Positions 14,729 through 43,048 of a stretch of 64,000 bases of DNA are shown one piece after another. A program made the position numbers and the translations under genes. Below the pieces are notes generated by a model. That model saw only the letters and a list, made by a program, of their open reading frames with translations, was not told the DNA's origin and searched no databases. Each line of letters opens with the position of its first letter. Within the stretch, counting starts at the first letter, position 1. Origin of the DNA: Stagnihabitans tardus (GTDB lineage: Bacteria; Pseudomonadota; Alphaproteobacteria; Rhodobacterales; Rhodobacteraceae); assembly GCF_009925085.1 (NCBI RefSeq), contig NZ_JAABNR010000007.1, positions 124,001-188,000 on the forward strand, written 5' to 3'.

Positions 14729-15187
14729 TCAGGCCTTGTACTTCGCGTCGATGGCGTTCATCGCCGCGACATTGCCCGCCGACTTGCCCGCCTTGTCGAA
14801 GTTCAGCGTCTCGGCCAGCCAGGCTTCGGCGATGGCTTTGGCGAGTTCCGACCCGATGACCCGCGCCCCCATGGTAATGATCTGCGCGTCGTTGGAAAGC
14901 GCCGCGCGGGTGGCCGAATAAGTGTCATGTGTCAGCGCGGCGCGGATGCCCGGAACCTTGTTGGCGCTGATGCAGACGCCGATCCCCGTGCCGCAAACGA
15001 GGATCGCGCGGTCATAGGTCCCGTCCAGCACGCCCGAGGCCACCCGCTCCGAGAGATTGGCATAGAAGGGATCGGCCTGGCCCTCCTGGCGCGAAATCTC
15101 ATGGACCTCATGCGCGCCCTTCAGGTGATCGGCCAGGAGTTTCGCCAGACCCTCTCCGGCGCTGTCGCCTGCGATGGCAAGTTTCAT
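14729..15187 (-). CDS. eryI: RpiB-type D-erythrose-4-phosphate isomerase
   Basis: Isomerase of 152 residues in the RpiB/LacAB family. The motifs are GDSAGE at the N-terminus and [16 protein letters not shown] around the catalytic Cys. In Brucella the RpiB-like enzyme of the erythritol operon (EryI) converts D-erythrulose 4-phosphate to D-erythrose 4-phosphate. Position as last gene of an ery operon, after the TIM-like gene, gives that assignment here rather than ribose-5-phosphate isomerase. ATGA overlap with eryH. The stop lies at the edge of a RIME-like palindrome. Confidence 0.88.
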
Positions 15188-15945
15188 GGGGTATCCTTTC
15201 CAAGTTGGTCCGAGACGCGGGCCAGGATGTCGAGGTAACCCGCGACATCCCAGGCCGAGCGCCCGATGAAGAGCCCGTCCACATGGGGGCAGGCGATGAG
15301 TTCCGCGCAATTGCCGGGGTTGACCGAGCCGCCATAAAGGCAGGGAATGCGCCGCCCGGTGACCTCATGGGCCACCGCGATGATCTCGGCCTGGCGGGCA
15401 TCGGCGTAACCGGCCGAGGCGGGGATGCCGCCCGCGCCGATGGCCCAGACCGGCTCATAGGCCAGAAGCACCGGGGCCGCGCCCACATCCGCCAGGGCCA
15501 TGCGGGTCTGATGGGCCAGGACCTCCGCCGCCCGGCCCGCCTCGCGCTCCTCCAGCGTCTCGCCGATGCAGATCAGCGGGATCAGCCCGTGACGCACGGC
15601 GGCGGCGGCTTTCAGGCCCACCGCCTCATCCGTCTCGCCGAAATGCGCGCGGCGTTCGGAATGGCCAAGCTCCACGAGGTCGAGCCCGCAATCCTTCAGC
15701 ATCAAAGGGCTGATTTCCCCGGTCCAGGCGCCCTGATCCTCCCAATGCATGTTCTGCGCACCGACCTTGACGGAGGTCGCCGCCAGCATCGCCTTGACCT
15801 CGCGGACGGCGGTAAAGGGCGGGATGACGAAGCGCTGCAGGCGGGGGTCGCGGCTGGCCTCGGTGGCCAGAAGCCCCTCGGCGAAGGCCCGCGCCTCGGC
15901 CAGGGTCTTGTTCATCTTCCAGCTGGTGCCGATCCAGAATGTCAT
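15184..15945 (-). CDS. eryH: TIM-like tetrulose-4-phosphate isomerase
   Basis: Triosephosphate-isomerase-fold protein of 253 residues. The catalytic Lys (SWKMN), His (ELGHSERR), Glu (AYEPVWAIG) and phosphate loop (GGSVNPGN) are present. The Asn of the usual NWKMN motif is Ser, a change I associate with the TpiA2/EryH branch rather than glycolytic TpiA. In Brucella EryH works on D-3-tetrulose 4-phosphate between EryC and EryI. Operon position between eryD and eryI supports this role. Confidence 0.87.
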
Positions 15946-15982
15946 GTTCGTCTTCCAGAGAGTGGGGGTCCTGAGAAACAGG

Positions 15983-16936
15983 TCATGTCGGGGGCGCCAG
16001 AAGGGCGCGGGCCGTGGTCTCGTCGGTGATCAGCCCCATGAGCCGCCCGCTGGAGAGGATCGCCCTCAGCGCCCCCGTCTTGCCGGGGCCGCCGGCGATG
16101 GCGACGATGCGGCTTTGGCGCGGGGCATCGAGCGTGGTGGCGAGCGTGCGCCGGGTAAGGGCCGTGGTCAGCACATGGCCGTGCTCGTCGAAGAAATGGC
16201 CCAGCATCTCGGCCACGCCGCCCTCGGCCCGGATCGCAGCCAGCTCTCCGGCGCCGATCATCCCCGAGGTCACCAGCTGCGCATCGCGTTCCACCGTGCC
16301 CACGCCCACCAGTTTCAGGCTCGCTTCCTCGGTCAGGGCGAAGAGGTCGGCGACCCCGGGTTGGCTCAGGAGGACCGCGCGGTCCTCGACCGAATTGGCA
16401 TAGAAGGGCACGGGCAGGATATGGGCCTGGGCGCCGCAGGTCTCGGCGATCCGGTACATGACGTCATGCGGGTTGGCGGCATAGGACCGCGTGAGCCCGC
16501 CCAGCAGCGAGACGAAGCGCAGCCCCGGCGCCTCGGTGCGCGGCAGTTGGCGGACAGCGGCCAGGAGCGTGCGGCCGTGGGAGAGGCCGATGACCTGGTG
16601 GGCGCCCGATTCGATGGCGCGGCGCAGGTAATCCGCCCCGGCCTGGCCCAAAGCCCGCAGCGGCAGGTCGGTTTCGCCAAGGTCGGGGGCCACTTCGCAG
16701 GTCGTCAGGCCAAAGCGGGCGCAAAGCGCCGCCTCCAGGCTCGCGCAATCCGCAGCCTTGCCGGTGATCGAGACCCGGACCACGCCCTCGGCCACGGCGC
16801 GGGCGATCAGGCGATGGGCCTTGACCGAGGGCACTTGCAGGCGCCTTGCGACCTCGGCCTGGGTCAGGCCGCCGACGTAATGCAGCCAGGCGGCGCGGAT
16901 CGAGAGGTCCTGTTCGGGGTCGGGACGCTGGGCCAT
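15983..16936 (-). CDS. eryD: SorC-family regulator of the erythritol operon
   Basis: Regulator of 317 residues with an N-terminal helix-turn-helix (YVGGLTQAEVARRLQVPSVK, residues about 20-39) and a SorC-type effector domain carrying GLSHGRT and RFVSLLGGL. Brucella EryD is a repressor of the ery operon relieved by a pathway intermediate and belongs to this family. Start and stop overlap with the iron alcohol dehydrogenase gene (TGATG). It lies inside the operon it is expected to control; the operator should lie in the eryA upstream region. Confidence 0.87.
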   Translation of the reverse strand: MAQRPDPEQDLSIRAAWLHYVGGLTQAEVARRLQVPSVKAHRLIARAVAEGVVRVSITGKAADCASLEAALCARFGLTTCEVAPDLGETDLPLRALGQAGADYLRRAIESGAHQVIGLSHGRTLLAAVRQLPRTEAPGLRFVSLLGGLTRSYAANPHDVMYRIAETCGAQAHILPVPFYANSVEDRAVLLSQPGVADLFALTEEASLKLVGVGTVERDAQLVTSGMIGAGELAAIRAEGGVAEMLGHFFDEHGHVLTTALTRRTLATTLDAPRQSRIVAIAGGPGKTGALRAILSSGRLMGLITDETTARALLAPPT

Positions 16937-18039
16937 CAGCGCGCGCCCTCCATCAGGGCAAGCAGGTCCTCACGCGACAGCGCCACGGGGTTGGCCTTCA
17001 TCGAGGAGGAGGTCGCGGCCATCTCCGCCGCCATCTCCCGCATCTCCTCCGTGATGCCAAGCGCATCGAGGCCCCGAAGCCCCTGGGCCCGCGCCCAGGC
17101 ATCCAGCCCGCCGGGGTGGCAGCTTGCGATCATGGCCTTGACCTGCGTCAGCCGGTCGGTCGCGGCCCTTGCGGCGTTCATCGCAAGCCCCGGCACCAGA
17201 AGCGCCCCGCAGATCGCGCCATGCGCCGCGCCCGAGAGGCCCCCAAGTGGCCCCGCCAGCCCATGGACCACCCCCAGCCCGGCATTGGCCAGGGCCAGCC
17301 CGCCACAGAGCGAGACAAAGGCCATCTCGTCGCGGGCCCCAGGGTCCTCGGCCTCCATCAGCCGTCGCAGCGCCAAAAGACCGCGCGGGATGGCGTCACG
17401 GCAAAGCGCATCGGTCAGGGGATTGGCGCGGGTGGAAACGAAGGGCTCGATGACCTGCGTGATCGCATCGAGGCCCGAGGCGAGCGTCACCCCCCTGGGA
17501 CAGCCATCCGTCAAGCCCGGATCCACCACGGCCAGCCGCGGCAGCATCCGCGCATCGCGAAGCGAGACCTTGCGCCGCGCCGAGGCCACCTGGATCACCG
17601 CATTGCGCGTCACCTCCCCCGTGCCCGCCGTGGTGGGGATGGCGGCAAAGGGCAGGGGAGCGGCCTCCAGCGGGCGGCCCTCGCCTACGACCTCCAGGTG
17701 GCGCAGGGCGCCCGAGGGCGCGGGGATCAGGGCAGCCAGCGCTTTTCCAGCATCGATCACCGCCCCGCCACCGATGGCCACCACCGCCTCGATCCCGGCC
17801 TCCCGGGCCCGCGCGACCCAGGCCTCGATCACCGCCAGCTCCGGCTCTTCCGATATGGCGACCGGCAGCGCGGGGCGCAGGGCCTCGATGGCCCGAGCCA
17901 CGCTTCCCCCCCGCGCCAAGGCCCCGGCGCCATGCACGACCATCAGCCGCCCCCAGGAGGCCAGCTCCGGCACGGCGCGCAAAGCCTCGCCCCGGCCAAA
18001 GCGGATCTCGGTGGACGTGGCGAAGGCAAAGGGCATCAT
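16936..18039 (-). CDS. Iron-containing alcohol dehydrogenase inside the ery operon
   Basis: Group III (iron-type) dehydrogenase of 367 residues. The NAD-binding loop is GGGAVIDAGKA and the metal-binding C-terminal part has HGLAGPLGG and AHG. The first metal ligand pair reads DAITQ, where most family members have DALTH, so Gln stands in for a His ligand. The known eryABCD operons lack such an enzyme, so it may open the pathway to another four-carbon alcohol or aldehyde. It overlaps eryC by 4 bases and eryD by 1 base, so it is a full member of the operon. Substrate unknown. Confidence 0.85.
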   Translation of the reverse strand: MMPFAFATSTEIRFGRGEALRAVPELASWGRLMVVHGAGALARGGSVARAIEALRPALPVAISEEPELAVIEAWVARAREAGIEAVVAIGGGAVIDAGKALAALIPAPSGALRHLEVVGEGRPLEAAPLPFAAIPTTAGTGEVTRNAVIQVASARRKVSLRDARMLPRLAVVDPGLTDGCPRGVTLASGLDAITQVIEPFVSTRANPLTDALCRDAIPRGLLALRRLMEAEDPGARDEMAFVSLCGGLALANAGLGVVHGLAGPLGGLSGAAHGAICGALLVPGLAMNAARAATDRLTQVKAMIASCHPGGLDAWARAQGLRGLDALGITEEMREMAAEMAATSSSMKANPVALSREDLLALMEGAR

Positions 18040-18968
18040 ATCTTCAAGTCCCTCGCGCCTGTGTCGATGAAGGGCGCCCAGAAGGCAATGCTTTCGGCGA
18101 TCTGGGGGATGACCTGGCGGTCATTGGGCTCGCGCTCCTTGAACGAGAGCTCGAGGCAGATCTCGTTGTCCTGCGCCCCCCCCTCGGCCAGGGCCTGCAA
18201 CAGAGGCTCGGGCTGCACCCGCCCCTTGGCGTTGAACTCCGCCGTAAAGGGCCGGTGACCGCCCTTGTCCAACAGGCTCTGCTTGATATGGATGATCGGA
18301 GAGACCTTCGGCACCGCCCGCGCCCAGGCATAGGGGTCGAGGTCCTCCGGATTGGGGCTCGTCACATCGCCATGGTCGATATCGGCCATCATCCACATCG
18401 GGATGGCCATATCGGCGGAGGTCAGCCGCGCCTGCAGGGCCAGGGCGGCCGCAATCGTCTCGCCGAACTCACGGCCGATGCTCATCGGCTCCCAGAAGAC
18501 ATGGGTAAGCCCCGCCGCGCGACCATGTTCCGCCACCTCCGCCCAGGCGTCGATGGCGATGCGGACCAGGTCTTCCCGGCGCGCGGCGTCGTCGTAATCG
18601 CGGTAGGTCAGAATCGCGAATTGCGTGCCGACCGAGGTGCCGCCCAACTCGCCGATGATATCGGCAAAGGTCTTGAACCAGTCGATATAATACCGCCGCA
18701 CCTCCGGGTCCGGGTGGCCGAAATGGTTGAGCCGCCCGTAAGGCCCCGTCATCCCGCTTGTCACCCTGACCCCGGTGCGCCCCAGCGCCGCCCCCATCTG
18801 CCGCGTCAGCCGCCGGATCACCGGGGCGGGCCAAGAGGGGTTGATGAACTCATGGGTCAGCTGCAGGTCGCGCAGGCGCAGGTCGCGCGCCACAGTCTCG
18901 ACCAGGTCATCCGGGTCGGCAAAGCGGTTCACCAGGGGATTGGTGTTCAAGGACAGGGTCAGGGCCAT
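18036..18968 (-). CDS. eryC: Tetrulose-4-phosphate racemase
   Basis: TIM-barrel protein of 310 residues in the xylose-isomerase-like superfamily. The start at 18968 overlaps the eryB stop by one base (TGATG). Visible motifs are MTGPYGRLNHFGHPDPEVR, HVFWEPMS (Glu) and MMADIDHGD (metal Asp and His). Brucella EryC, long called a dehydrogenase, is a racemase turning L- into D-3-tetrulose 4-phosphate, and the gene order eryA-eryB-eryC here is the same. The absence of a Rossmann fold agrees with the racemase role. Confidence 0.88.
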   Translation of the reverse strand: MALTLSLNTNPLVNRFADPDDLVETVARDLRLRDLQLTHEFINPSWPAPVIRRLTRQMGAALGRTGVRVTSGMTGPYGRLNHFGHPDPEVRRYYIDWFKTFADIIGELGGTSVGTQFAILTYRDYDDAARREDLVRIAIDAWAEVAEHGRAAGLTHVFWEPMSIGREFGETIAAALALQARLTSADMAIPMWMMADIDHGDVTSPNPEDLDPYAWARAVPKVSPIIHIKQSLLDKGGHRPFTAEFNAKGRVQPEPLLQALAEGGAQDNEICLELSFKEREPNDRQVIPQIAESIAFWAPFIDTGARDLKI

Positions 18969-20443
18969 CAGGCGACCTCTTGGAAGGTTTGGGCGAACCA
19001 GTCCGAGAAAGCGACCTTTTCGGCCTCGGTCAAGTGCAGGTAATGCTTGGTGCGGCGCGTCAGGACATCCTCGGCCGTCATGGCCCATTCGCGGGCCACA
19101 AGGTAGCGCGCCTCGGCCTCGTAGAGCTGGCCGCCGAAGTGACGGCCCAGGGGCGCCCCCAGGATCTCCCGCGTCCTGGTGCCATAGCGCCGCGCCAGGT
19201 GCAGGATCAGCGCGCGGTCGACCTTGGGAAACTCGTCGCGCAAGGTGTTGATGAAGCTCTCGAAATCCGCCCCCGGCATCTCGCCGCCGGGCAGGGGGGC
19301 CCTGGCCGTCCAATCCGGCCCCATCTGGGGAAAGACCCCCTTCAACCGGTGAAGCCCCCGTTCGGCCAGCTCCCGGAAGGTGGTGATCTTGCCGCCGAAG
19401 ACATTCAGCATCGGCACGCCGCCGGTCTCGTCGAGGTCGAAGACATAGTCCCGCGTCACCGCCGAGGGATTGCCCTTGCCGTCGTCGAAGAGCGGCCGGA
19501 CCCCCGAGAAGCTGTGCAGCACATCCGAGGGCCGCAGCTTTTCCTTGAAATAGCGGTTTACCGCCTTCAGCAGGTAATCGACCTCGGTCTCGGCGATGGC
19601 CACGTCCTCGGCCCGGCCCTCCCAGGGGATATCGGTCGTGCCGATCAGGGCCATGTCGCCCTCATAGGGGTTGATGAAGATCACGCGCTTGTCGTGGTTC
19701 TGCACGAGGTAAGCATTCTGCCCCTCCCACCACTTCTTGACGATGATATGCGAGCCCTTGACCAAGCGGACACCCCGCGAGGAGTTCGACCCCGCCACCC
19801 GCCCGATGATATCCGAAACCCAGGGCCCCGCTGCATTGACGATGCATTTGGCGCGGTGGGTCCGCTCGCCATGGGGACCCTTGGTCACGATGGTCCAGGC
19901 GCCATCCTCGCGCCGGGCCGAAGTGACCGCCGACCGGGTCAGCACCTCGGCGCCCTTTTCCGCCGCCCCAAGCGCGTTCAGCACCACGAGCCGGGCGTCA
20001 TCCACCCAGCAGTCGGAGTATTCGAAACCCTTGGTATAGGCGGGCAGCACCGCCGCCCCCTCGGGGGCGCGGCGCAGGTCAAGGGTCCGCGTCCCGGGCA
20101 GCTTCTTGCGGCCGCCCAGGTGGTCATAGAGAAACAGCCCCAGCCGCACGAGCCAGGCCGGCCGGTCCTGCGGCGAATGCGGCAGGACAAAGCGCATGGG
20201 CCAGATGATATGGGGGGCGGCGGCGAGAAGGATTTCCCGCTCGATCAGGGCCTCACGCACCAGCCGGAATTCGTAATATTCCAGGTAGCGCAGCCCGCCA
20301 TGGACCAGCTTCCCCGAACGGGAAGAGGTGCCCTGTGCAAGGTCGTCCTTCTCGGCCAGGGCGACCTTGAGCCCCCGCCCCGCGGCGTCCCGGGCGATCC
20401 CCGCGCCATTGATCCCGCCACCGATGACGAACAGGTCCAGCAT
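18968..20443 (-). CDS. eryB: FAD-dependent erythritol-4-phosphate dehydrogenase (GlpD-like)
   Basis: Oxidase of 491 residues of the glycerol-3-phosphate dehydrogenase (GlpD) type. The FAD-binding motif GGGINGAGIARDAAGRG is at the N-terminus, followed by SGKLVHGGLRYLE, the family fingerprint. FGGKITTFRELAE lies towards the C-terminus. It oxidises L-erythritol 4-phosphate made by EryA and passes electrons to the membrane quinone pool. Only 3 bases separate it from eryA. Ordinary GlpD would fit the sequence, but placement between eryA and eryC makes EryB far more likely. Confidence 0.88.
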   Translation of the reverse strand: MLDLFVIGGGINGAGIARDAAGRGLKVALAEKDDLAQGTSSRSGKLVHGGLRYLEYYEFRLVREALIEREILLAAAPHIIWPMRFVLPHSPQDRPAWLVRLGLFLYDHLGGRKKLPGTRTLDLRRAPEGAAVLPAYTKGFEYSDCWVDDARLVVLNALGAAEKGAEVLTRSAVTSARREDGAWTIVTKGPHGERTHRAKCIVNAAGPWVSDIIGRVAGSNSSRGVRLVKGSHIIVKKWWEGQNAYLVQNHDKRVIFINPYEGDMALIGTTDIPWEGRAEDVAIAETEVDYLLKAVNRYFKEKLRPSDVLHSFSGVRPLFDDGKGNPSAVTRDYVFDLDETGGVPMLNVFGGKITTFRELAERGLHRLKGVFPQMGPDWTARAPLPGGEMPGADFESFINTLRDEFPKVDRALILHLARRYGTRTREILGAPLGRHFGGQLYEAEARYLVAREWAMTAEDVLTRRTKHYLHLTEAEKVAFSDWFAQTFQEVA

Positions 20444-20446
20444 CGC

Positions 20447-21985
20447 TTACTCCCTTGCGCTCAGCGCGTCCCAGGCGGGCACGAGCCCCCGGCGCGCGGC
20501 GCCATAGGCCTTGAAGAGCCCATCATAGGTTGAAATCAGCCCCGCATCCGGCGCCTCGGGCGCGCCCAGAAGCGGCGTCACCCAGTCGGCGATGCAGGCC
20601 TCCATCGAGGGATAGGCCCCGATCGCCACGGCGGCCATCATCGCAGCCCCCGCCGCGCCAGCCTCCTCGCGGGCCGAGACCCGGACCGGCGCATGGGCGC
20701 AGGCCGACAGCACCGCCCGCAAGCCCCGGGACCGTGCCGCGCCGCCTGTCAGGCGCAGCTCGGAAGGCAGGGGGCCCATGGCGGCATAGCAATCGCGCAG
20801 CGCCATCCCCAGCCCCTCGACCACCGCCCGCACCAGGTCGGGGTAGCCGTGGCTCTGCGTCAGTCCCACGAAGCCCGCCCGCGCCTTGGCCGAAACGAAA
20901 GGCCCGCGCTCTCCGGCCTCGGAGATATAGGGCAGGTAAACGATCTGCCCCGGCTCCGTCGCCGCCAGCCACCTCTCGATATGGCCCACGAGGTCACGGT
21001 GGCTGGCGGGATGGCCCATGTCCGTCAGAAGCCCGGCCCCCATGTTCAGAACCCAATCGAGGTTCAGCGTGGCGGCCATGTTCGTCTGGACCTGGGTGAC
21101 GATGCCGGGAATGGGCAGGGCGATGACATAGCCCGTGCCCTCGGCGTTCAGGTGGACATCCTCGGCCCGGACCGCGCGCATATGGACGCCGGTGGACCCC
21201 ACGGTCGAGCAGGCGACATTCTCGCCTCCGCCGTAGACCCCGGCGCCCAAGGCCGTCATCGCCATGTCGACATAGGCCAAGGAGACGGGCGTGCCCGGGC
21301 GCAGGCCCGTGAGGGCGGCGGCCTCGGGCGTCATTGGATGGGTTTCCTGGCTGCCGTCCAGGATCGGCGGCAGGAGGGCGCGGCGATGCGAAAGCCCAAG
21401 CGCCGCGATGACGCCGTCGTCATAGGCCCTGGTGCGGAAATCGGCAAAGGTGAAGCCCGCCTCGGAGGGGTCGGTGGCGCGCACCCCGGTCAGGTTCAGA
21501 TAAAGCCAGTCCTTGCAATGCAAGGCGACCTCGGCCCGGTTCAGGAGGTCGGGGTGAAAGCGGTCCATATGGGCCATCTGCGCGCCCATCTGGCAGGTGT
21601 TGAGCCCGGTGCCCGTGGTCTCGAAGCGCCTGCGGTTCCCCGACAGGCGATCCACCGTCGGCGCGGCGCGGGCGTCGAGCCAGAGCCAGGCCGGGGCCAC
21701 GGGCCCATCGCGGCCCACAAGCCAGGTCCCGTCGCCCTGCGCCGTCACCGACAGGGCGGCCGTGCGGGCGGCGAGCCCCGGAACCTGCGCGCCAAGCGCC
21801 CGCAGCGCCGCGGCGCAATCCTCCCAGGTGCGGACCATGTCCTGCGTGACGGCGCCCCCCGCGCCCACGTCATAGCGGTTGGGAATCGCGGAGACCGCGA
21901 CTTGGTTGCCCGCAAGGTCGAAGGCCACGGCCTTCAGGACCGAGGTCCCGGCGTCGATGCCGATCACCAACTCTGTCTCTGCCAT
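20447..21985 (-). CDS. eryA: Erythritol kinase (FGGY family)
   Basis: Kinase of 512 residues that phosphorylates erythritol to L-erythritol 4-phosphate in the cytoplasm. The start at 21985 has AAGGGGGGAG upstream; the frame is open far upstream but without homologous sequence. The ATP-binding start IGIDAGTSVLKAVAFD, the active-site stretch YLPYISEAGERGPF and the C-terminal LRLTGGAARSRGLR are FGGY motifs. First gene of the minus-strand ery operon. A promoter candidate precedes it in the divergent region. Confidence 0.9.
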   Translation of the reverse strand: MAETELVIGIDAGTSVLKAVAFDLAGNQVAVSAIPNRYDVGAGGAVTQDMVRTWEDCAAALRALGAQVPGLAARTAALSVTAQGDGTWLVGRDGPVAPAWLWLDARAAPTVDRLSGNRRRFETTGTGLNTCQMGAQMAHMDRFHPDLLNRAEVALHCKDWLYLNLTGVRATDPSEAGFTFADFRTRAYDDGVIAALGLSHRRALLPPILDGSQETHPMTPEAAALTGLRPGTPVSLAYVDMAMTALGAGVYGGGENVACSTVGSTGVHMRAVRAEDVHLNAEGTGYVIALPIPGIVTQVQTNMAATLNLDWVLNMGAGLLTDMGHPASHRDLVGHIERWLAATEPGQIVYLPYISEAGERGPFVSAKARAGFVGLTQSHGYPDLVRAVVEGLGMALRDCYAAMGPLPSELRLTGGAARSRGLRAVLSACAHAPVRVSAREEAGAAGAAMMAAVAIGAYPSMEACIADWVTPLLGAPEAPDAGLISTYDGLFKAYGAARRGLVPAWDALSARE

Positions 21986-22061
21986 GGCTCCCCCCTTGGT
22001 CTCGTGCCTTTTATCACCACAAAGATAACATGAGAAATGAAATTCTTTACGGACATCGCGA

Positions 22062-22090
22062 TTTATTTCAGCTAAACTCGACAAGGTCAA
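22062..22090 (-). promoter_or_regulatory. Promoter candidate of the ery operon
   Basis: Read on the minus strand: -35 TTGACC (22085-22090), 17-base spacer, -10 AATAAA (22062-22067). This would start transcription near 22055, giving a leader of about 70 bases before eryA that contains the GATAA motifs. Confidence 0.45.
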
Positions 22091-22341
22091 TCCCGGTGAG
22101 GGGTCTTGCCCCGGCGCGCCGGGGGCTTGCCCCCTTTGGGTCGCGCCTTGCCCGCCTTGGCGGCTCTCGGGCGGAAATCTCAGGTTTTGCAGGTCTTTCT
22201 CGTCGGAATCGCCCGTCTTTCGGGAGTTTTTCCAGCGGCGTCCCGGCTTTTGCTTCGTGCGCGGGGCGGGGGTCCTGGGACGACTCGCCCAGAAGTCTTT
22301 GCGGGGCGTCCACTGGAATCTCGGCGCAAAATATAACTCAC

Positions 22342-22369: not shown

Positions 22370-22485
22370 ACTGTCTCGTCCAGACCGGAGGAGGAACCGG
22401 GCGGGCAGGGGGGAATCGGGGAAGCGGGCCTTGGGCCTGACGCCGTCTTCTGCGCGCCAAGGCCTCGTGAATGCGGGAGCCGCCC

Positions 22486-33931: not shown

Positions 33932-35389
33932 TCAAAGGCGGAAAAGCTGGGGTTCCGGCTCGCCGCCATGGTGATAGATCGGCCAGCCGAGATAGCGGAT
34001 CACCGCCTCTTCGACGACCTGGGCATGCTGGCCGCGCACCATGGCGACATGGTGCTCGAAGCCGTTTTGCGTCACGAACTTCATCAGCTTGCGCAGGCCA
34101 GCGACCCGCGTTGTGGCAATGCCGCCATCCATGGGGAAGGGGTGGTCGGTGAACTCTCCCTCGCCGAGGTAGCATTTCAGCGTGCCCTTGGAATCATCCG
34201 AGGACAGGCGGAAATAGGTCATCTCGCCGGGCTTCACCTTGCCCTTGACCGCGCCGAAGCATTTCGACCGCCCGATGGTTTCGCCCAGAACATCGAGCTC
34301 GCCAATCTCGGGCGTGTCGCCGATGAAGGACTTGGGGAAGTTGCCGCAATGGGTGGCGACGCAGAGGTCCTTTTCATAGGCGTAGTTGTTGTTCCAATCG
34401 AGAAGCGCAGGCGGCGCGCCCGAGGCGAGCGCCAGGGCATACATCGAGACCGCGCCCATGATGTCGACCTCGCAGGCCGAGGGCGAAAGCTCTTCGCCCA
34501 GCATCGACATGGTGACGCAGGTGGCGCAGCCGAAATTGTCCTGCAGGCTCCGCCAGCACTGGATGGCCGAGGCGTCGCAGCCGTTCTCCTCGATCCAGCG
34601 GTTGACGGCGAGTGTCCACTTGGCCTGGGTCGCAATCTGTTTTTCGGTGATATGGGCGGGAATCGCGCCATAGGCCCGGATCCGCGCCATCTTGGCCAGA
34701 AGTGCGGGCTCGTCGTCGCGGATCGCCCCCGCCGCCCCCATCATCTCGGAGAGGTCGACCGTCACCACCGTCATCCCCGAGGCCTGGAGGAGCTTCTCGC
34801 TGTAGCGCATGGTCTGGAAAGCCCCGGTCCTGGCCCCGATCGAGCCCAGCCTTGCGGTGCGCAAGCCCTTGACCGTGCGGCAGATCCGGCCAAAGCGGTC
34901 GAGATCGGCGCGGAACTCCTCCCCCCAGACATCGGAGGTATGCGAGGTCGTCTCGGTGAAGGGCACGCCATATTGGTAGAAGTTGTTCGACACCGAAATC
35001 TTGCCGCAAAAGGCATCGCGGCGGGATTTCACATCCACCCGCGTCGGGCTGTCGTTCGAGGCCTGCAAGAGGATCGGCACGTTCAGCTTCGCGCGGTTGA
35101 CCAGTTCGACCACCGCGATCTCGTCGCCGAAATTGGGCAGGCAGATGACCAGGCCGTCGATCTCGTCGGCGTGACGGCGGAAGAGGGCGGCATATTGCTC
35201 GGCATCGGCGAGGCTTTGCACCGCGCCATTGGCGGTCGCCTCATAGGGCAGGATCACCGATTTGATCCCCAGCCCCTCCAGCTGGGCCAGCACCTGGATG
35301 CGCGCATCCTTGCAGGGCGTGGGGCTGAAAAAAGCCCGGCTGCCGATCACCACGCCCAAGGTCGTCGGGCGGAACATCCGACCTGTCAT
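33932..35389 (-). CDS. L-fucose/L-arabinose isomerase-fold protein
   Basis: Protein of 485 residues with the layout of L-fucose and L-arabinose isomerases: an N-terminal Rossmann-like part (TTLGVVIGSRAFFSPTPCKDARIQ, IDGLVICLPNFGDE) and a C-terminal catalytic part with ENGCDASAIQCWRSLQDNFGCATC and HCGNFP. The start at 35389 has GGAGGAGG; the frame continues upstream into the promoter. It heads an operon with split transketolase and a kinase, so it probably converts an aldose to the ketose that enters the pathway. D-apiose is one candidate; other sugars are possible. Promoter and palindromic operator precede it. Confidence 0.75.
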   Translation of the reverse strand: MTGRMFRPTTLGVVIGSRAFFSPTPCKDARIQVLAQLEGLGIKSVILPYEATANGAVQSLADAEQYAALFRRHADEIDGLVICLPNFGDEIAVVELVNRAKLNVPILLQASNDSPTRVDVKSRRDAFCGKISVSNNFYQYGVPFTETTSHTSDVWGEEFRADLDRFGRICRTVKGLRTARLGSIGARTGAFQTMRYSEKLLQASGMTVVTVDLSEMMGAAGAIRDDEPALLAKMARIRAYGAIPAHITEKQIATQAKWTLAVNRWIEENGCDASAIQCWRSLQDNFGCATCVTMSMLGEELSPSACEVDIMGAVSMYALALASGAPPALLDWNNNYAYEKDLCVATHCGNFPKSFIGDTPEIGELDVLGETIGRSKCFGAVKGKVKPGEMTYFRLSSDDSKGTLKCYLGEGEFTDHPFPMDGGIATTRVAGLRKLMKFVTQNGFEHHVAMVRGQHAQVVEEAVIRYLGWPIYHHGGEPEPQLFRL

Positions 35390-35577: not shown

Positions 35578-36592
<1,015 letters not shown>

Positions 36593-36643
36593 CAACGGCA
36601 CGGCCCGGGGGAGACCCTGGGCCGGACCCAAGGGGGGGCAAGC

Positions 36644-37249
36644 ATGAAACATCTGTCACGGGGCCTGGCCTGCGGGCTGGCCCTTTTGGCGCTTGGCGGC
36701 TGCAAGATCGTCAAGACGGAAAAGGCCACGGGCATCGACCCGGATGTGGCCTTGATCGCGGGCATCGTGGAGGAGAGCTTCGGCTCCAAGCTGGTGCCCC
36801 TGGTCTCGGAACAGGCGGTCGAGGCCAAGGGCGTCTTGCCGCTGGGGGACCTGGGCGCCACGGGGGCCAAGAAGGGCGCGGGCGAGGGGGGCTCCTGGAC
36901 CTTGGCCATCAAGGGCGCGGGGGTCGTGGTGTCCGAGGACCGCAAGTCGCGGGCGGGCAAGGTGAACCTGGACGTGACGGGCGATGGGGTGGCGGATCTG
37001 ACGCTGCAGCTGGGGCCCGTGGTCAAAGGCACGGCGTTGCGCGACATCGCGCCGTTTTATGACTTCACCGCCTTCCGCGACCAGATCCAGTTTGCGGCGC
37101 TCGGCCGGGCCTTGAACGACCGCGCGGTGGGGGCTCTGACCCTGCCCGAGGTTCTGGTGGGCAAGACCCTGGCCTTCGAGGGCGTCTTCCAGGTGCAAAA
37201 GCCCAAGGACCCGGTGCTGGTCGTCCCCCTGAAGGCGGAGGTCCAATGA
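36644..37249 (+). CDS. DUF2291 lipoprotein, sugar-transport partner
   Basis: Lipoprotein of 201 residues with signal peptide and lipobox LGGC (Cys20 near the N-terminus). It resembles the membrane-anchored protein at 22486-23124 in the second half (FRDQIQFAALGRALNDRA, GKTLAFEGVFQV). It sits between the binding protein and the ATPase (ATGA overlap with the latter), so it is a built-in member of the transporter operon. Function unknown. Confidence 0.75.
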   Translation: MKHLSRGLACGLALLALGGCKIVKTEKATGIDPDVALIAGIVEESFGSKLVPLVSEQAVEAKGVLPLGDLGATGAKKGAGEGGSWTLAIKGAGVVVSEDRKSRAGKVNLDVTGDGVADLTLQLGPVVKGTALRDIAPFYDFTAFRDQIQFAALGRALNDRAVGALTLPEVLVGKTLAFEGVFQVQKPKDPVLVVPLKAEVQ

Positions 37250-38745
37250 TCGGTCTTTCCATCCGCGGCGGGGTCAAGGTCTATCCCGGCACCCGCGCCT
37301 TGAAGGGCGTCGATTTCGACTTGCATATGGGCGCGGTCAATGTCCTGGTCGGCGAAAACGGCGCCGGGAAATCCACGCTGATGAAGGTCATCGCGGGGGT
37401 CGAAAGCCTCACCGAGGGCCGGATCGAGATGGGCGGAAAGCCCGTCGTCTTCCGCTCGAAAGAGGACGCGGTCAAGGCGGGCATCGGCATCGTCTTCCAG
37501 GAGCTGAACCTCTTTCCCAACCTGACGGTCGCCGAGAATATCTTCATCGGCCGCGAACCGAGGCGGCTTGGTCTCGACATCGACGCGGGCGCCCAGATTG
37601 CCGCCACCCGTGCCCTGATGGCGCGGCTCGAGCAAAAGATCGACCCCGAGACGCCCTTGGAAAACCTCAAGGTCGGCCAGCAGCAGATCGTCGAGATCGC
37701 CAAGGCGCTCGCCCAGGACGCCAGGATCCTCATCCTGGACGAGCCGACCTCGGCCCTGTCGGGCGCCGAGGTCGAGGTGCTCTTCCGCCTCATCGACGAC
37801 CTGAAGGCGCAAGGGGTGGGCATCGTCTATATCTCGCATAGGCTGGACGAGCTGATCCGGGTGGGCGATTACATCACCGTCCTGCGCGACGGAGAGATCA
37901 CCGGGGCGCGGGGCATGGAGGGGGTGGATATCCCCTGGATCGTGCGCGCCATGATCGGCGACAAGACCCGCGAATTCCCCCGCACCTCCAAGGCCGCCTT
38001 TGGCCCGGAGGTCTTTCGCGCCGAATCCATCCGCATGGCGCGGGCGGGCGGCTTTGCGGTGGACGGGGTCTCCTTCAGCCTGAAAAAGGGCGAGATCCTG
38101 GGGCTTTACGGGCTGATGGGGGCAGGGCGGACAGAGCTTGTCGAGTGCATCATGGCCCAGCACCCCCACACGGGCCGCTTCTTCATCGAGGGCCAGCCCC
38201 TGACCGGCGATGTCGCCACCCGCATCGCCAAGGGCGTCGCCCTGATCCCCGAGGACCGCAAGCGCGACGGCCTCGTCCAGATCATGGCCATCCGCGAGAA
38301 CCTGACGCTCTCCGCCCTGAAAAGCTTCGCGCGCGGCTTTCACCTCAGCCTGCGGGCCGAGGCCGCAAAGGCGGCCGACTTCATCAAGCGCCTGACCGTC
38401 AAGGTGGCGAGCCCCGAGAACCCCGTCTCCTCCCTGTCGGGCGGCAACCAGCAAAAGGTCGTCATCGGCAAGGCCCTGATGACCGGGCCCAAGGTGCTGT
38501 TGATGGACGAACCCTCGCGCGGGATCGACATCGGCGCCAAGGCCGAGGTCTTCCGCACCATGCGCGACCTCGCCGCCCAGGGCCTCGCCATCCTTTTCGT
38601 CACCTCCGACCTCGACGAGGTCATGGCGCTGTCGGACCGCATCCTGGTGATGACCGAGGGCCGCATCGCCGGGGAGTTCCCCGGCACCGCCCCGGCAGCC
38701 CGGATCATCGCCGCAGCCAGCCCCAAACATCCGGAGATATCATGA
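37246..38745 (+). CDS. Sugar ABC transporter ATPase, RbsA-type (second system)
   Basis: Duplicated ATPase of 499 residues. First half GENGAGKST and LILDEPTSALSGAE; second half degenerate GLMGAGRTE with SLSGGNQQKVVIGKALM and LLMDEPSRGIDIGAK. Parallel to the ATPase at 23121 but not a recent duplicate (many differences between motifs). ATGA overlaps on both sides mark tight operon coupling. Confidence 0.92.
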   Translation: MIGLSIRGGVKVYPGTRALKGVDFDLHMGAVNVLVGENGAGKSTLMKVIAGVESLTEGRIEMGGKPVVFRSKEDAVKAGIGIVFQELNLFPNLTVAENIFIGREPRRLGLDIDAGAQIAATRALMARLEQKIDPETPLENLKVGQQQIVEIAKALAQDARILILDEPTSALSGAEVEVLFRLIDDLKAQGVGIVYISHRLDELIRVGDYITVLRDGEITGARGMEGVDIPWIVRAMIGDKTREFPRTSKAAFGPEVFRAESIRMARAGGFAVDGVSFSLKKGEILGLYGLMGAGRTELVECIMAQHPHTGRFFIEGQPLTGDVATRIAKGVALIPEDRKRDGLVQIMAIRENLTLSALKSFARGFHLSLRAEAAKAADFIKRLTVKVASPENPVSSLSGGNQQKVVIGKALMTGPKVLLMDEPSRGIDIGAKAEVFRTMRDLAAQGLAILFVTSDLDEVMALSDRILVMTEGRIAGEFPGTAPAARIIAAASPKHPEIS

Positions 38746-39812
38746 GCCTCGCCATGACCCGCCCCAATGGCGGCCAGACCGCCCTTCTGACCCTCTTGCG
38801 CGCAAGGACCTTCGTCGCGCTGATCCTGGTCTTCGGCTTTTTCGCGGTGCAGGCGCCGAATTTCCTGACGCCCGAGAACATGGTCATCATCACCAAACAC
38901 GTCGCGCTGAACGCATTCCTCGCCATCGGCATGACCTTCGTCATCATCACCGGGGGGATCGACCTCTCGGTGGGCTCGACCGTGGGGCTTTCGGCCATGG
39001 TGGCGGGGGGGCTGGTGCTTTACGGCATCGACCCCGGCTTCGGCCTGATGGATTTGGGTTGGTCGATCCAGTTCAACACACTGGAGATCGCGGGGCTTAC
39101 CTGCCTCGTGGGCATCTTCATCGGCGCGGTCAATGGCTGGCTGATCACCCGGGCGGGCGTCGCGCCCTTCATCGCCACGCTCGGCACCATGTATATCGCA
39201 AGGGGAGCGGCGCTTTTGTCCTCGGAGGGGCGAACCTTTCCGAACCTTTCCGGCAATGTGGACTATGGCTCGCAGAGCTTCGCCTGGATCGGCTCGGGCG
39301 CGATCCTGGGGGTGCCCTTTCCGATCTGGGCGCTGGCCGTGGTGGCGGCTCTGGCGGCCTATGCCTCGCGCCGCACGACGCTGGGGCGCTATATCTATGC
39401 GGTGGGCGGCAATGAGCGGGGGGCGGCGCTCTCGGGCGTCAGGGTCAACCGGGTCAAGATGGCGGTCTATGTCTTTTCGGGCCTTTGCGCCTCGATCGTC
39501 GGGCTGATCATCGCGAGCCAGCTTCAGGCCTCTCACCCCGCGACCGGGGAGAGCTTCGAGATGAACGCCATCGCCGCGGCGGTCCTGGGCGGGACCTCGA
39601 TGTCGGGCGGGCGGGGCAGGGTGGGCGGCACGCTGATCGGCGCCTTCGTCATCGGCATCCTGTCGGATGGGCTGATCATGATGGGCGTCTCGGCCTTTTG
39701 GCAGACCGTGATCAAGGGCGTGGTCATCATCGCCGCCGTGGTGGTCGACCAGGCGCAAAGCCGTCTTCAGGCGCGGGTGGCGCTGGCGCAAGAGGCGCAA
39801 GCCGGGCGGTAA
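38742..39812 (+). CDS. Sugar ABC transporter permease, RbsC-type (second system)
   Basis: Permease of 356 residues; the start at 38742 lies in an ATGA overlap with the ATPase. IITGGIDLSVGSTVGLSAM and LGGTSMSGGRGRVGGTLIG are the family hallmarks. About 55 bases separate it from the DeoR gene, which is probably read from the same transcript. Confidence 0.92.
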   Translation: MSLAMTRPNGGQTALLTLLRARTFVALILVFGFFAVQAPNFLTPENMVIITKHVALNAFLAIGMTFVIITGGIDLSVGSTVGLSAMVAGGLVLYGIDPGFGLMDLGWSIQFNTLEIAGLTCLVGIFIGAVNGWLITRAGVAPFIATLGTMYIARGAALLSSEGRTFPNLSGNVDYGSQSFAWIGSGAILGVPFPIWALAVVAALAAYASRRTTLGRYIYAVGGNERGAALSGVRVNRVKMAVYVFSGLCASIVGLIIASQLQASHPATGESFEMNAIAAAVLGGTSMSGGRGRVGGTLIGAFVIGILSDGLIMMGVSAFWQTVIKGVVIIAAVVVDQAQSRLQARVALAQEAQAGR

Positions 39813-39867
39813 GGCTGGACGGCGCAGGCCAATCGCCCTAGACAGAAGGCAACGAAAGGAGGGCATG

Positions 39868-40668
39868 ATGGCGATGGAACGTGGCGAGACATCCTTCGTG
39901 GGCCTCCTCTCCGAGCCCCGGCGGCGGCGCATCCTGGATTGGATCCAGGAAGAGGGCGCGGCGCGGGTGCGCGACCTCGCCCAGGCCTTTCAAGTGTCCG
40001 AGGCGACGATCCGCCAGGACCTGGAGCGGCTGGAGGCGGAAGGCCATATCACCCGCGAACACGGCGGGGCCTTTTTGAACTCGGTGCCCGCGCAGGTCCA
40101 TGCCATGGCCCTGCAACATCAAGAGAACATGGAGAAAAAGCGCAAGATCGGGGCTTTGGCGGCTTCGCTGGTCGCCGATGGCGAGACCTTGATCCTGGAC
40201 GCAGGGTCGACCACGACCGAGATCGGGACAAGGCTGACGACCAAGCGCGACCTGACCGTGATCACCAATGCGCTGAACATCGCGCTGACCTTGGGCGCCG
40301 TGCCGGGCTTTGCCGTCCATATGCCGGGCGGCCAGTTCAAGGCGCCGACCCTGTCGCTGTCCGGTGACAAGGCGGTCGAATATTTCCGCAACATCTTCGC
40401 GGGCAAGCTTTTCCTGGCCACCGCTGGCGTGGCTTTGGATGCCGGGCTCACCTATCCCTCTTTCGCGGACCTTCAGCTGAAAGAGGCGATGATCAAGGCC
40501 GCTGCCCATGTGATCCTGGTGGCCGACAGCTCCAAGATCAACAAATCCAGCTTCACGCGGCTCGGCGCCCTGGAGGTCATCCAGACCTTCATCACCGACG
40601 ACGGAATCTCCGACACCGACGCCCAAGCCTTCGAACGGCGCGGCGTCAAGCTCTTGGTCGCCGTCTGA
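39868..40668 (+). CDS. DeoR-family regulator of the second sugar module
   Basis: Regulator of 266 residues. Winged helix at about residues 20-70 (RVRDLAQAFQVSEATIRQDLERLEAEG) and the DeoR effector domain with LDAGSTTTEIG and LVADSSKINKSSFTRLG. Three in-frame ATGs lie close together (39865, 39868, 39874); AGGAGG at 39857-39862 suits 39868 best. Last gene of the transporter operon and the likely reader of the CGAAAG palindromes between the transporter and isomerase operons; a sugar phosphate would be the inducer. Confidence 0.87.
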   Translation: MAMERGETSFVGLLSEPRRRRILDWIQEEGAARVRDLAQAFQVSEATIRQDLERLEAEGHITREHGGAFLNSVPAQVHAMALQHQENMEKKRKIGALAASLVADGETLILDAGSTTTEIGTRLTTKRDLTVITNALNIALTLGAVPGFAVHMPGGQFKAPTLSLSGDKAVEYFRNIFAGKLFLATAGVALDAGLTYPSFADLQLKEAMIKAAAHVILVADSSKINKSSFTRLGALEVIQTFITDDGISDTDAQAFERRGVKLLVAV

Positions 40669-40827: not shown

Positions 40828-41295
40828 ATGCGCTGCCCGTTCTGCGGCAATATCGACACGCAAGTGAAGGACTCCCGTCCGGCCGAGGATCACGTCTCGA
40901 TCCGGCGGAGGCGCTTCTGCCAGGCCTGCGGGGGCCGCTTCACCACCTATGAACGCGTGCAACTGCGCGACCTGGTGGTGATCAAATCCTCCGGCAAGCG
41001 CGAGGATTTCGACCGGACCAAGCTGGAGCGGTCCATCCGCATCGCCATGCAGAAACGCCCGATCGAGCCCGAACGCATCGACCAGATGATCAGCGGCATC
41101 GTGCGGCGGCTGGAGTCCCTGGGCGATACCGATATCCCCTCCAAGCAGATCGGTGAGATCGTCATGGAGAGCCTGGCGCGGATCGACACGGTGGCCTATG
41201 TGCGCTTCGCCAGCGTTTACAAGAACTTCCAGGCGGCGGACGACTTCGACCGCTTCGTCAGCGAGCTGCGCCCGCCGCAGGCGCCGGAAGAGTAA
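40828..41295 (+). CDS. nrdR: Transcriptional repressor NrdR
   Basis: Repressor of ribonucleotide reductase genes, 155 residues. The start MRCPFCG at 40828, with AAGGGGAAGG upstream, gives the standard length. Zinc ribbon cysteines are CPFC and CQAC (residues 3, 6, 31 and 34); the ATP-cone domain follows ([20 protein letters not shown]). It senses ATP and dATP. Upstream is a NrdR-box-like site, suggesting autoregulation; downstream a run of GC hairpins ends the unit. In relatives it is often followed by rib genes, which are absent here. Confidence 0.96.
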
Positions 41296-41373: not shown

Positions 41374-41477
41374 CAGGACCGGGGGCTGCGCGTCAGCCGC
41401 GCTTGCCGCCTGCGCCACCATGGGCCCCTTTCCTCCCCCGATCGGCTCTGCCATTCTCCCCCCAAAGGGAGACCCAT

Positions 41478-42383
41478 ATGAAAATCCTCATCCTTGGCGC
41501 GGCGGGCATGATCGGCCGCCGCTTGGCCCAGGCCCTCTCGGCCCATGACCTGACGCTGGTCGACATGATCCAGCCCGACCAGCCCGGCGCCATCTGCATG
41601 GCCCGCGACCTGACCGCCGATCCCGCGCCTCTGCTGGCGGGCCGCCCCGAGGCGATCATCCACCTGGCCGCCGTGGTCTCGGGCGAGGCCGAGGCCGATT
41701 TCGCCAAGGGCTATGCGATCAACCTCGACGCCTCCCGCGCGCTCCTGGAGGCGATCCGGGCGATCCCGGGATACAGGCCGAAGCTCCTCTTCGCCTCCTC
41801 CATCGCGGTCTTCGGCACGCCTTTCCCCGACCAGATCCCCGACGATTTCCACCTGACGCCCCGCACCTCCTATGGCACGCAAAAGGCCATGACCGAGCTT
41901 TTGATCAGCGACTACACCAGGCGCGGCTTCATCGACGGGCTGTCGCTGCGGCTGCCCACGATCTGCATAAGACCCGGAGCGCCCAACAAGGCCGCTTCGG
42001 GCTTCTTCTCCAACATCCTGCGCGAGCCCTTGGTGGGCCTGCCCGCCGTCCTGCCGGTGGAGGACAGCACGCGCCACTGGTTCGCCTCCCCCGCCTCGGC
42101 GGTGGGCTTCTTCACCCATGCTCTGGGGCTGGACCTGGGCCAGTTCGGCGCGGCCAGGGCGCTGAACATGCCCGGGCTCTCGGCCACGGTGGCCGAAGAG
42201 ATCGAGGCTTTGCGCCGGGTGGCGGGCCAAAAGGCCGTCGACCTGATCGAGGTCAAGCGCGACGAAACCATCGCCGCCATCGTCGCGGGCTGGCCCTGCG
42301 ACTTCACCGCGACACGGGCAAGGGCGGCGGGTTTCGTGGCAGAGACCTCCTTCGACCAGATCATCGCGGCGCATCTGACATGA
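41478..42383 (+). CDS. denD: D-erythronate dehydrogenase-like SDR (DenD type)
   Basis: Extended short-chain dehydrogenase of 301 residues. NAD motif GAAGMIGRRL near residue 8, active-site YGTQK (Tyr132, Lys136), and the DenD-like stretch RLPTICIRPGAPNKAASGFF. DenD oxidises D-erythronate at C2 in four-carbon acid sugar breakdown. No kinase, isomerase or aldolase partner (DtnK, OtnI, OtnC) is adjacent, but an erythritol operon lies 20 kb away. The frame extends upstream; 41478 is chosen for AAAGGGAG. ATGA overlap with the next SDR. Confidence 0.72.
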   Translation: MKILILGAAGMIGRRLAQALSAHDLTLVDMIQPDQPGAICMARDLTADPAPLLAGRPEAIIHLAAVVSGEAEADFAKGYAINLDASRALLEAIRAIPGYRPKLLFASSIAVFGTPFPDQIPDDFHLTPRTSYGTQKAMTELLISDYTRRGFIDGLSLRLPTICIRPGAPNKAASGFFSNILREPLVGLPAVLPVEDSTRHWFASPASAVGFFTHALGLDLGQFGAARALNMPGLSATVAEEIEALRRVAGQKAVDLIEVKRDETIAAIVAGWPCDFTATRARAAGFVAETSFDQIIAAHLT

Positions 42384-43048
42384 GGCCGCTGCATCCGACG
42401 GCCCTGGTGACCGGCGGCAATCGGGGCCTGGGACGCGCCATCGCCAAGGGCCTGATCGAGCGGGGCGTGCGCGTGACCATCGGCGCGCGGGAGGCAGCCC
42501 TTGGCGCCGAGGCCGCCCGGGCGCTTGGCTGCGACCATGTCCATCTCGATCTCACCGAGGCCGATACCTGGTTCGAGGCCTTTGCCCGGAAGGGCGGCTG
42601 GGACATCCTGGTGAACAACGCGGGGCTTTACCGCCAGGGCTCGCTTCTGGAGCCGGGATCGGATTTCACCGAGGCCATGGAGGTCATGGTGGCAGCGCCC
42701 CTCGACCTGATCCGAATGAACATGGGCCATTGGCGGCAGAGGGGCTGGGGGCGGATCGTCAATGTCTCCTCGGGCCTGGGGTCCTTTGCGCGGGGATTGG
42801 GCGGACCCGGCGCCTATTCCATCGCCAAGGCCAGCCTGAACGCCCTGACCCGCGTCCTGCCGCGCGATCTTCCGGATGGCGTCAAGGTCAATGCCTGTGA
42901 CCCGGGGTGGTTGCGCACCCGGATGGGGGGAGATGGGGCTCCTCTCTCGGCCGAAGAAGGGGCAGATACCCCGGTATGGCTGGCGCTTCTGCCCGAGGAT
43001 GGGCCGACGGGCGGCTTCTTTCGGGGCAGGCAGCCGGCGGAGTGGTAG
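42380..43048 (+). CDS. Short-chain dehydrogenase/reductase
   Basis: Classical SDR of 222 residues. TGGNRGLG is the cofactor motif, NNAG the structural motif, and Ser of VNVSSGLGS with YSIAK the catalytic set. The C-terminus is short (QPAEW). Translationally coupled to the DenD-like gene by ATGA, so the two probably act on the same or successive compounds. The substrate is not evident. Confidence 0.82.
   Translation: MRPLHPTALVTGGNRGLGRAIAKGLIERGVRVTIGAREAALGAEAARALGCDHVHLDLTEADTWFEAFARKGGWDILVNNAGLYRQGSLLEPGSDFTEAMEVMVAAPLDLIRMNMGHWRQRGWGRIVNVSSGLGSFARGLGGPGAYSIAKASLNALTRVLPRDLPDGVKVNACDPGWLRTRMGGDGAPLSAEEGADTPVWLALLPEDGPTGGFFRGRQPAEW

Follow-up and report, generated by a model that had tools for sequence, protein, structure and literature searches.

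Does the dense run of sugar genes at positions 14729–43048 of a 64,000-nucleotide stretch of the Stagnihabitans tardus genome (the window) form one catabolic unit, or do separate pathways lie side by side? A first-pass annotation had described a single island for four-carbon and branched sugars, whose products would meet at erythrose 4-phosphate and transketolase chemistry. Our analysis points to two independent catabolic modules arranged end to end, a reading to which we assign a probability of about 0.7: an erythritol locus whose kinase–oxidase pair kin2-glpD2 would be a second polyol entry, most likely for threitol, and a putative D-apiose transketolase pathway. The gene content, the conservation of each module and, in the samples examined, the one-way dependence of kin2 on the ery genes were observed directly. 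Overall, two pathways of known type, usually inherited apart, simply lie next to each other here, together with one conserved kinase–oxidase pair.

Based on the list of open reading frames (ORFs) and on Pfam and NCBIfam scans, every gene class named in the first-pass annotation was found in its place, with frames open over their full length, and its counts of three FGGY kinases, two GlpD-like oxidases and two DUF2291 genes were right (Table 1). The Pfam scan covered 30 ORFs chosen from the window at 11934–43954. The distribution of the genes was examined in 394 genomes of the family Rhodobacteraceae, including that of S. tardus itself (4.59 Mb, 114 contigs); eryA was scored as present at an expectation (E) value up to 1e-90 and the isomerase of the apiose-type block at E up to 1e-40. 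Additionally, a kin2 alignment was used to scan the genomes of 84,980 species, one per species, which gave 329 matches, and the best 80 of these were kept as loci. The nearest named relative found was Rhodobacter sp. KR11, with protein identities of 86% for kin2 and 99% for nrdR.

The co-occurrence of the modules in relatives, which the first-pass annotation had itself proposed as a check, turned out to be rare. Both eryA and the isomerase are present in five of the 394 family genomes, namely S. tardus, a member of the same genus (G077), G014, G065 and G247; the eryA homologue of G014 is only 49% identical. Leaving S. tardus out, 4/393 genomes carry both, compared to 1.26 expected (p = 0.03), and in none of the four do the two genes share a contig. 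Any tendency to co-occur is weak at most, with no adjacency seen in these four genomes, and each module is a stable block on its own. Similarly, among the best 80 of 329 kin2 loci, 76 reach at least 2 kb beyond glpD2 and a single one of these adjoins the apiose-type block.

The fusion was found only in S. tardus and Rhodobacter sp. KR11. At the junction, glpD2 and the kinase gene apK converge, and both stop codons lie in a shared CTAG (4-bp overlap at 30712–30715). KR11 retains this overlap as well as nrdR, denD, the gene for a short-chain dehydrogenase (SDR) and the iron-type dehydrogenase gene between eryC and eryD. The enzymes and the DeoR regulator of the apiose-type block are also kept, but KR11 has no counterpart of window positions 35447–39873, the whole apiose-type transporter (about 17800–17970 in its locus, L110). 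The only match to RbsB2 elsewhere in KR11 at E up to 1e-60 was the ery RbsB (51%). As the block with a transporter is the commoner form, we read this absence as a loss.

Positions 14729–30715 are, judged from sequence, an erythritol locus composed of eryABC, an iron-type dehydrogenase gene, eryDHI, an EryEFG-type transporter and kin2-glpD2. Homologues of EryA, EryB, EryC, EryD, EryH and EryI stand together and in order in one locus, the DUF2291-RbsA-RbsC-RbsB transporter adjoins eryA, and the eryABCDHI proteins are 57–94% identical to those of other eryEFG-type loci. Homologues of eryA occur in 34/394 family genomes, S. tardus included. Erythritol would be imported by the EryEFG-type ATP-binding cassette (ABC) transporter, phosphorylated by EryA, oxidized by EryB, racemized by EryC and isomerized by EryH and EryI to erythrose 4-phosphate. 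This is the published five-step route, and for this module the end point proposed earlier holds. Plasmid-borne eryA, eryB, eryC, eryH and eryI were enough for E. coli to grow on erythritol, as described in section 6 of one article (PMC10190533). The iron-type dehydrogenase gene adjoins eryC in KR11 and in some other ery loci. Its homologues (E up to 1e-70) were found in 93/394 family genomes, with most copies outside the ery loci seen, and are commoner in genomes with eryA (20/34) than without (73/360; p = 4e-6). Because they are so widespread, with 73 of the 93 in genomes lacking eryA, the gene is not ery-specific.

The second kinase–oxidase pair had been taken for a module of its own; it is rather a regular part of EryEFG-type erythritol loci. 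Among the best 80 of 329 kin2 loci, glpD2 follows kin2 in all 80, with a gap of at least 500 bases in 21, often holding a second DeoR-type gene. The upstream DUF2291-RbsACB block and an adjoining eryA, in one case in two pieces, are found in 75/80. Among the five exceptions, one locus is truncated by the end of its contig; in the remaining four, an eryA (75–79% identical) lies elsewhere in the genome. The pair follows the erythritol transporter in loci of Rhizobium, Mesorhizobium, Labrys, Paracoccus and Rhodobacter. Within the family, 33 genomes have kin2 matches at E up to 1e-70, 14 of them (S. tardus included) with at least 49% identity and the other 19 with at most 41%. All of these 14 have eryA; for the 13 apart from S. 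tardus, 1.09 would be expected (eryA in 33/393, p = 8e-16), and in 12 of the 13 eryA shares the contig of kin2, no more than about 12 kb away. Furthermore, kin2 is present in 14/19 genomes with an EryEFG-type ery locus and in 0/15 with another type (p = 1e-5). In one genome (G183) kin2 comes directly after eryI and shares the strand of eryABCD; G065 shows the same placement for a kin2 piece, at the end of the fetched stretch. The dependence in the samples examined is one-way, of kin2-glpD2 on the ery genes but not the reverse, and the presence of the pair follows the transporter type.

Taken together, the one-way dependence and the link to the transporter type are most simply read as a second substrate of the same transporter, which once phosphorylated and oxidized would be an existing intermediate of the ery trunk. 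As the five ery genes sufficed in E. coli according to the section cited above (PMC10190533), kin2-glpD2 should not be needed for erythritol itself. Our best guess is that the pair admits a further tetritol, for instance threitol, which would join the route at EryC, EryH or EryI, and the one-way dependence turns this into a specific prediction. The second polyol, most likely D- or L-threitol, would arrive through the same transporter; Kin2 would phosphorylate it, and GlpD2 would oxidize the product to a tetrulose phosphate, joining at EryC or EryH. By stereochemical reasoning, threitol that is phosphorylated and then oxidized next to the phosphate would yield D- or L-3-tetrulose 4-phosphate, which fits the two compounds interconverted by EryC. 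No assigned function for the pair was found in the passages of the literature searched, which included an FGGY paper. For bacterial threitol use, one article names Mycolicibacterium smegmatis and a different route (PMC12780249).

A separate cluster on contig C22 of the S. tardus genome (about 18500–36900, L261) holds a kin2-like kinase (36%), a GlpD2-like oxidase (42%), ABC transporter ATPases, EryC-like (61%) and EryH-like (64%) proteins, a transketolase, a transaldolase-domain gene and E2/E3-type dehydrogenase genes. Neither eryA nor eryB has a match as strong as an orthologue in the stretch, which is possibly another tetritol route. The idea that a pair of this type always accompanies EryC/EryH homologues failed, as among the C22-type loci fetched only S. 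tardus has both within reach. GlpD2-like and kin2-like genes (36–46%) also recur at a further locus in family genomes (L267–L278, L280–L282), mostly with an eryD-like regulator and an Rbs-type transporter.

The second conserved block (30712–40668) combines an isomerase, a split transketolase, a kinase, its own transporter and a DeoR regulator, and would fit a D-apiose transketolase pathway. The isomerase was found in 16/394 family genomes; one copy, lying at the end of a contig, is only a piece (G111), and another is 43% identical and has an internal stop codon (G343). Eight of the 15 relatives with the isomerase have the complete block (isomerase, N and C halves of the transketolase and kinase, with RbsB-DUF2291-RbsA-RbsC-DeoR divergent), one has the enzymes and DeoR and no transporter, and one is cut inside the isomerase by a contig end. 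In a genome-wide search, a transketolase N half of 50–55% identity was detected in G285, G329, G314 and G014. In two loci (L062 and L070) an isomerase orthologue (77–83% identical) stands without any other apiose gene beside it, and an N half (50–55%) lies elsewhere in the genome.

Outside the family, these enzymes and this type of transporter are clustered together in Klebsiella, Sodalis and Rahnella plasmid records. Matches to the transketolase pair of Klebsiella were found in 629/5426 E. coli genomes, with a DNA identity of 73.6–73.9% in the five matches listed, and in the one record opened the E. coli cluster adjoins entD and fepA. Its gene set, order and place agree with the description of the D-apiose cluster (aplK-aptA-aptB) in PMC13001218, where strains carrying that cluster are described as growing on D-apiose. 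Compared to this cluster, the S. tardus kinase is 46% identical, the transketolase N half 46%, the C half 41% and the permease 57%, while the binding protein and the ATPase also lie within 41–57%. The kinase apK shares 46% identity with the E. coli apiose-cluster kinase and 40% with the GlpK of its own genome, and scores below the GlpK cut-off of TIGR01311 (443.4 vs. 590.35 bits), which the genome's own GlpK exceeds (665 bits).

The putative apiose isomerase apI is homologous to the isomerases of the Klebsiella, Sodalis, Rahnella and Listeria clusters. It is 45% identical to those of Klebsiella and Sodalis and 27–28% to that of Listeria. An alignment of 11 isomerases revealed E303, D327, H343, H442 and H443 as invariant, and we take these to correspond to metal ligands of L-arabinose and L-fucose isomerases. 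Among solved structures, none matched the isomerase in sequence at E up to 0.01. An apiosidase-family gene (PF13204, 313 bits) is found two genes away from the homologues in the Listeria cluster (L015). The family relative G324 has a weaker PF13204 match (57 bits), which is part of an ABC-transporter operon and about 5 kb away from its isomerase gene.

D-Apiose would be imported by the module's own transporter, isomerized to apulose and phosphorylated by the GlpK-like kinase to apulose 4-phosphate, from which the split transketolase would transfer two carbons to glyceraldehyde 3-phosphate, giving dihydroxyacetone phosphate (DHAP) and xylulose 5-phosphate. Carter 2018 is said to have described D-apiose transketolase clusters and apsI of Pectobacterium. 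The use of transketolase chemistry by this part is in line with the first-pass annotation, but a common end point for all products is not supported: the apiose transketolase route ends in DHAP and xylulose 5-phosphate rather than in erythrose 4-phosphate. In Shinella kummerowiae, the ery kin2-glpD2 pair is directly followed by a transporter and a Gfo/Idh/MocA oxidoreductase (L170, 14397–19698); the RbsB of this transporter is 77–79% identical to that of the apiose-type transporter. No isomerase match was found in that genome at E up to 1e-20, and the stretch may be an oxidative apiose system.

The modules also differ in their regulator genes. The ery operon has a SorC-type regulator, and kin2-glpD2 and the apiose-type block have one DeoR-type regulator each. 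The word CGAAA was counted in intergenic regions and compared to 300 sequences simulated from first-order (dinucleotide) frequencies. Ten isomerase/RbsB regions contain 45 copies (17.0 expected, standard deviation 4.0, maximum 29 of 300), an enrichment that is partly circular because the word was picked from nearly the same sequences before the test. Twelve eryA/transporter regions showed no enrichment (19 vs. 20.4 expected), and five rbsB1/deoR1 regions contain 8 copies (2.4 expected, maximum 7). These counts suggest separate control of the apiose and ery promoters, though they stop short of showing it, since CGAAA is enriched before deoR1 as well; a similar DeoR-type site may precede the kin2 unit.

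Several points weigh against the two-module reading and its assignments. EryB and EryH exceed the NCBIfam cut-offs for glycerol-3-phosphate dehydrogenase (823.7 vs. 352 bits) and triose-phosphate isomerase (416.2 vs. 293 bits); as these models do not part them from their housekeeping relatives, both names rest on synteny. EryI falls narrowly below its own model, NF051858 (235.5 vs. 240 bits). Keeping the best 80 of 329 kin2 matches under-samples distant kin2 relatives in other contexts, kin2 paralogues of 36–41% identity stand mostly in loci without eryA, and contig ends truncate some of the 15 ery loci of other types. In five of the 15 relatives the isomerase has no block beside it; in one of them (L071) a diverged transketolase pair and a kinase lie about 7 kb away. 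The kinase tree does not part apK from GlpK, and the GlpK of S. tardus groups with the Listeria cluster kinase. PF13204 is a weak genome-wide marker, present in 2/33 genomes searched (one of 17 with the isomerase and one of 16 without). The substrates and reactions in this organism are all inferred, with the assignment of threitol as the weakest step.

A single co-evolved island for several C4 and branched sugars, with products meeting at erythrose 4-phosphate and transketolase, appears improbable. The fusion is kept in two species down to the overlapping stop codons, co-occurrence is in slight excess, and the products of the two routes, xylulose 5-phosphate for apiose and erythrose 4-phosphate for erythritol, serve transketolase as co-substrates. 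These points are opposed by the separate contigs in all four other genomes of the family sample with both genes, even in the same genus, by the one adjoining block in 76 kin2 loci, by the different regulator genes and by nrdR, which lies inside. Of the proposed island for several related sugars, it stands that more than one small sugar or polyol would be served, but not that the genes form one functional or evolutionary unit. It is also unlikely that the split-transketolase block handles another sugar, such as an unknown pentose or sulfoquinovose by the sulfo-transketolase route. The only NCBIfam match of the isomerase is the sulfoquinovose isomerase SftI (90.2 bits vs. a cut-off of 700), and its family acts on varied aldoses; yet the block holds a sugar kinase, an enzyme that the sulfo-transketolase route is not known to include, the gene content is common to the E. 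coli apiose cluster and the Klebsiella, Sodalis, Rahnella and Listeria clusters, and apiosidase-family neighbors occur in Listeria and in G324. Sulfoquinovose itself was rejected as the substrate, given the kinase and the gene content of apiose clusters.

For kin2-glpD2, a role in the use of glycerol or a pentitol (e.g., ribitol or arabitol) instead of a tetritol is possible, though we consider it the less probable choice. An FGGY kinase with a GlpD-like oxidase follows the logic of glycerol use, and the S. meliloti ery locus is reported to handle adonitol and L-arabitol as well, with EryA usable for both (PMC3599248). On the other hand, kin2 scores 139.4 bits with the GlpK model TIGR01311, far below the cut-off of 590.35, and is associated with eryEFG-type loci. 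The kinase tree places it outside the EryA clade, joined first by the C22 paralogue and then by EryA. The genome holds a separate GlpK and, on contig C27, a further gene besides EryB over the GlpD cut-off (720 bits); this last gene would be GlpD by elimination only, a caveat that again counts against our assignment. With these two genes present, kin2-glpD2 was rejected as the glycerol pathway of the genome. Beyond the preferred reading of two independent modules, a bolder joint scheme can be drawn, which we regard as a long shot. EryEFG-type loci would be dual tetritol systems, with kin2-glpD2 feeding threitol into the EryC-EryH-EryI trunk, and in the fused Rhodobacter locus the apiose transketolase would take the erythrose 4-phosphate of the neighboring module as acceptor (apulose 4-phosphate + erythrose 4-phosphate to DHAP + fructose 6-phosphate); in KR11, apiose would enter via the erythritol transporter.

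The gene nrdR (40828–41295), omitted from the first-pass list, separates the sugar genes from denD and the SDR gene. These three genes are neighbors of the two modules, not members: denD and the SDR gene are present as described earlier, but beyond nrdR their only tie to the modules is the same order in KR11. DenD exceeds its own NCBIfam cut-off; erythronate kinase and the rest of the DenD pathway lay outside the searches made. Genes of an Opp-type transporter occupy 11934–14671, directly upstream of eryI, where KR11 has an eryD-like gene (36%) instead. A mobile island was rejected: no integrase or transposase domain was found among the 30 ORFs scanned, the only tRNA gene lies at 61618, and the guanine-plus-cytosine content is flat at 0.62–0.72 in 2-kb steps. 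As no such marks were seen, the word island describes clustering only. The features are listed in Table 1.

Table 1. Features of the two modules and their neighbors, in window coordinates.
Feature	Position	Strand	Basis
eryI, RpiB type, putative D-erythrulose-4-phosphate isomerase	14729..15187	-	NF051858 235.5 bits, just under cut-off 240; PF02502
eryH, triose-phosphate-isomerase type	15184..15945	-	PF00121 246.5 bits; place beside eryI here and in relatives
eryD, SorC-type regulator	15983..16936	-	PF04198 225.2 bits; 57-68% identity in eryEFG-type ery loci
Iron-containing alcohol dehydrogenase inside ery operon	16936..18039	-	PF00465, PF25137
eryC, tetrulose-phosphate racemase type	18036..18968	-	PF01261; 79-86% identity in 17/18 eryEFG-type family loci, 73% in the other
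eryB, GlpD-type erythritol-phosphate dehydrogenase	18968..20443	-	PF01266, PF16901; synteny; 71-80% in eryEFG-type family loci
eryA, FGGY erythritol kinase	20447..21985	-	PF00370/PF02782
DUF2291 protein, EryEFG-type transporter operon	22471..23124	+	PF10054 135.7 bits
RbsA-type ATPase, EryEFG-type transporter	23121..24623	+	PF00005; 74-82% in family eryEFG-type loci, 75-93% in 75 loci of the kin2 scan
RbsC-type permease, EryEFG-type transporter	24632..25633	+	PF02653
RbsB-type binding protein, EryEFG-type transporter	25681..26625	+	PF13407
deoR1, DeoR-family regulator of kin2-glpD2 unit	26728..27555	+	PF00455, PF08220; homologue of at least 45% in 68/80 loci
kin2, second FGGY kinase	27646..29109	+	PF00370/PF02782; own clade apart from EryA and GlpK
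glpD2, second GlpD-like FAD (flavin adenine dinucleotide) oxidoreductase	29102..30715	+	PF01266, PF16901
apK, GlpK-like FGGY kinase, putative D-apulose kinase	30712..32118	-	TIGR01311 443.4 bits, below cut-off 590.35
Transketolase C half, AptB-like	32115..33065	-	PF02779, PF02780; 41% to E. coli apiose-cluster C half
Transketolase N half, AptA-like	33065..33877	-	PF00456; 46% to E. coli apiose-cluster N half
apI, L-fucose-isomerase-like (Fucose_iso_C), putative D-apiose isomerase	33932..35377	-	PF02952 98 bits
rbsB2, RbsB-type binding protein, apiose-type module	35654..36592	+	NF007936 173.4 bits, below cut-off 337; 80-90% in nine family loci
DUF2291 protein, apiose-type transporter	36644..37249	+	PF10054 133 bits
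RbsA-type ATPase, apiose-type transporter	37246..38745	+	PF00005
RbsC-type permease, apiose-type transporter	38742..39812	+	PF02653
deoR2, DeoR-family regulator	39865..40668	+	PF00455, PF08220; 76-85% in relatives' apiose blocks
nrdR, housekeeping regulator interrupting the stretch	40828..41295	+	TIGR00244 163.1 bits, cut-off 124.65
denD-like, D-erythronate dehydrogenase	41478..42383	+	NF043036 342.8 bits, cut-off 325
Short-chain dehydrogenase (SDR), start overlaps denD end	42380..43048	+	PF00106 106.6 bits

Compared to the ery loci of Rhizobium leguminosarum and Brucella/Ochrobactrum, the S. tardus locus has the same enzymes, a SorC-type regulator and a DUF2291-RbsACB transporter divergent from eryA. 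The order deoR-kin2-glpD2 after the transporter is also that of R. leguminosarum, whereas the ten ery genes listed for Ochrobactrum in section 6 of the article include no kin2-glpD2 (PMC10190533). The iron-type alcohol dehydrogenase gene between eryC and eryD and the apiose-type block joined at the end set the S. tardus locus apart from all of these.

The apiose-type block shares with the E. coli and Pectobacterium apiose clusters the split transketolase, the GlpK-like kinase and the RbsB-DUF2291-RbsA-RbsC transporter, with identities to the E. coli cluster of 41–57% outside DUF2291, and its isomerase is of the kind found in Klebsiella, Sodalis and Rahnella. The E. coli cluster has no isomerase and two SDR genes, and a 'sugar-binding' (eryD-like) regulator takes the place of the DeoR regulator found here. 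The Listeria cluster contains the same four enzymes in the order isomerase, transketolase N half, C half and kinase, but differs in import by a phosphotransferase system, a LacI regulator and the apiosidase-family gene. The same sugar is used within the same bacterial family by Rhodobacteraceae strain LCG007, for which the sections of PMC11747546 on this pathway describe an oxidative route (dehydrogenase, lactonase, oxidoisomerase, kinase and decarboxylase), as opposed to isomerase, kinase and transketolase here. S. tardus would carry a transketolase-type apiose block in a bacterial family for which those sections describe the oxidative one.

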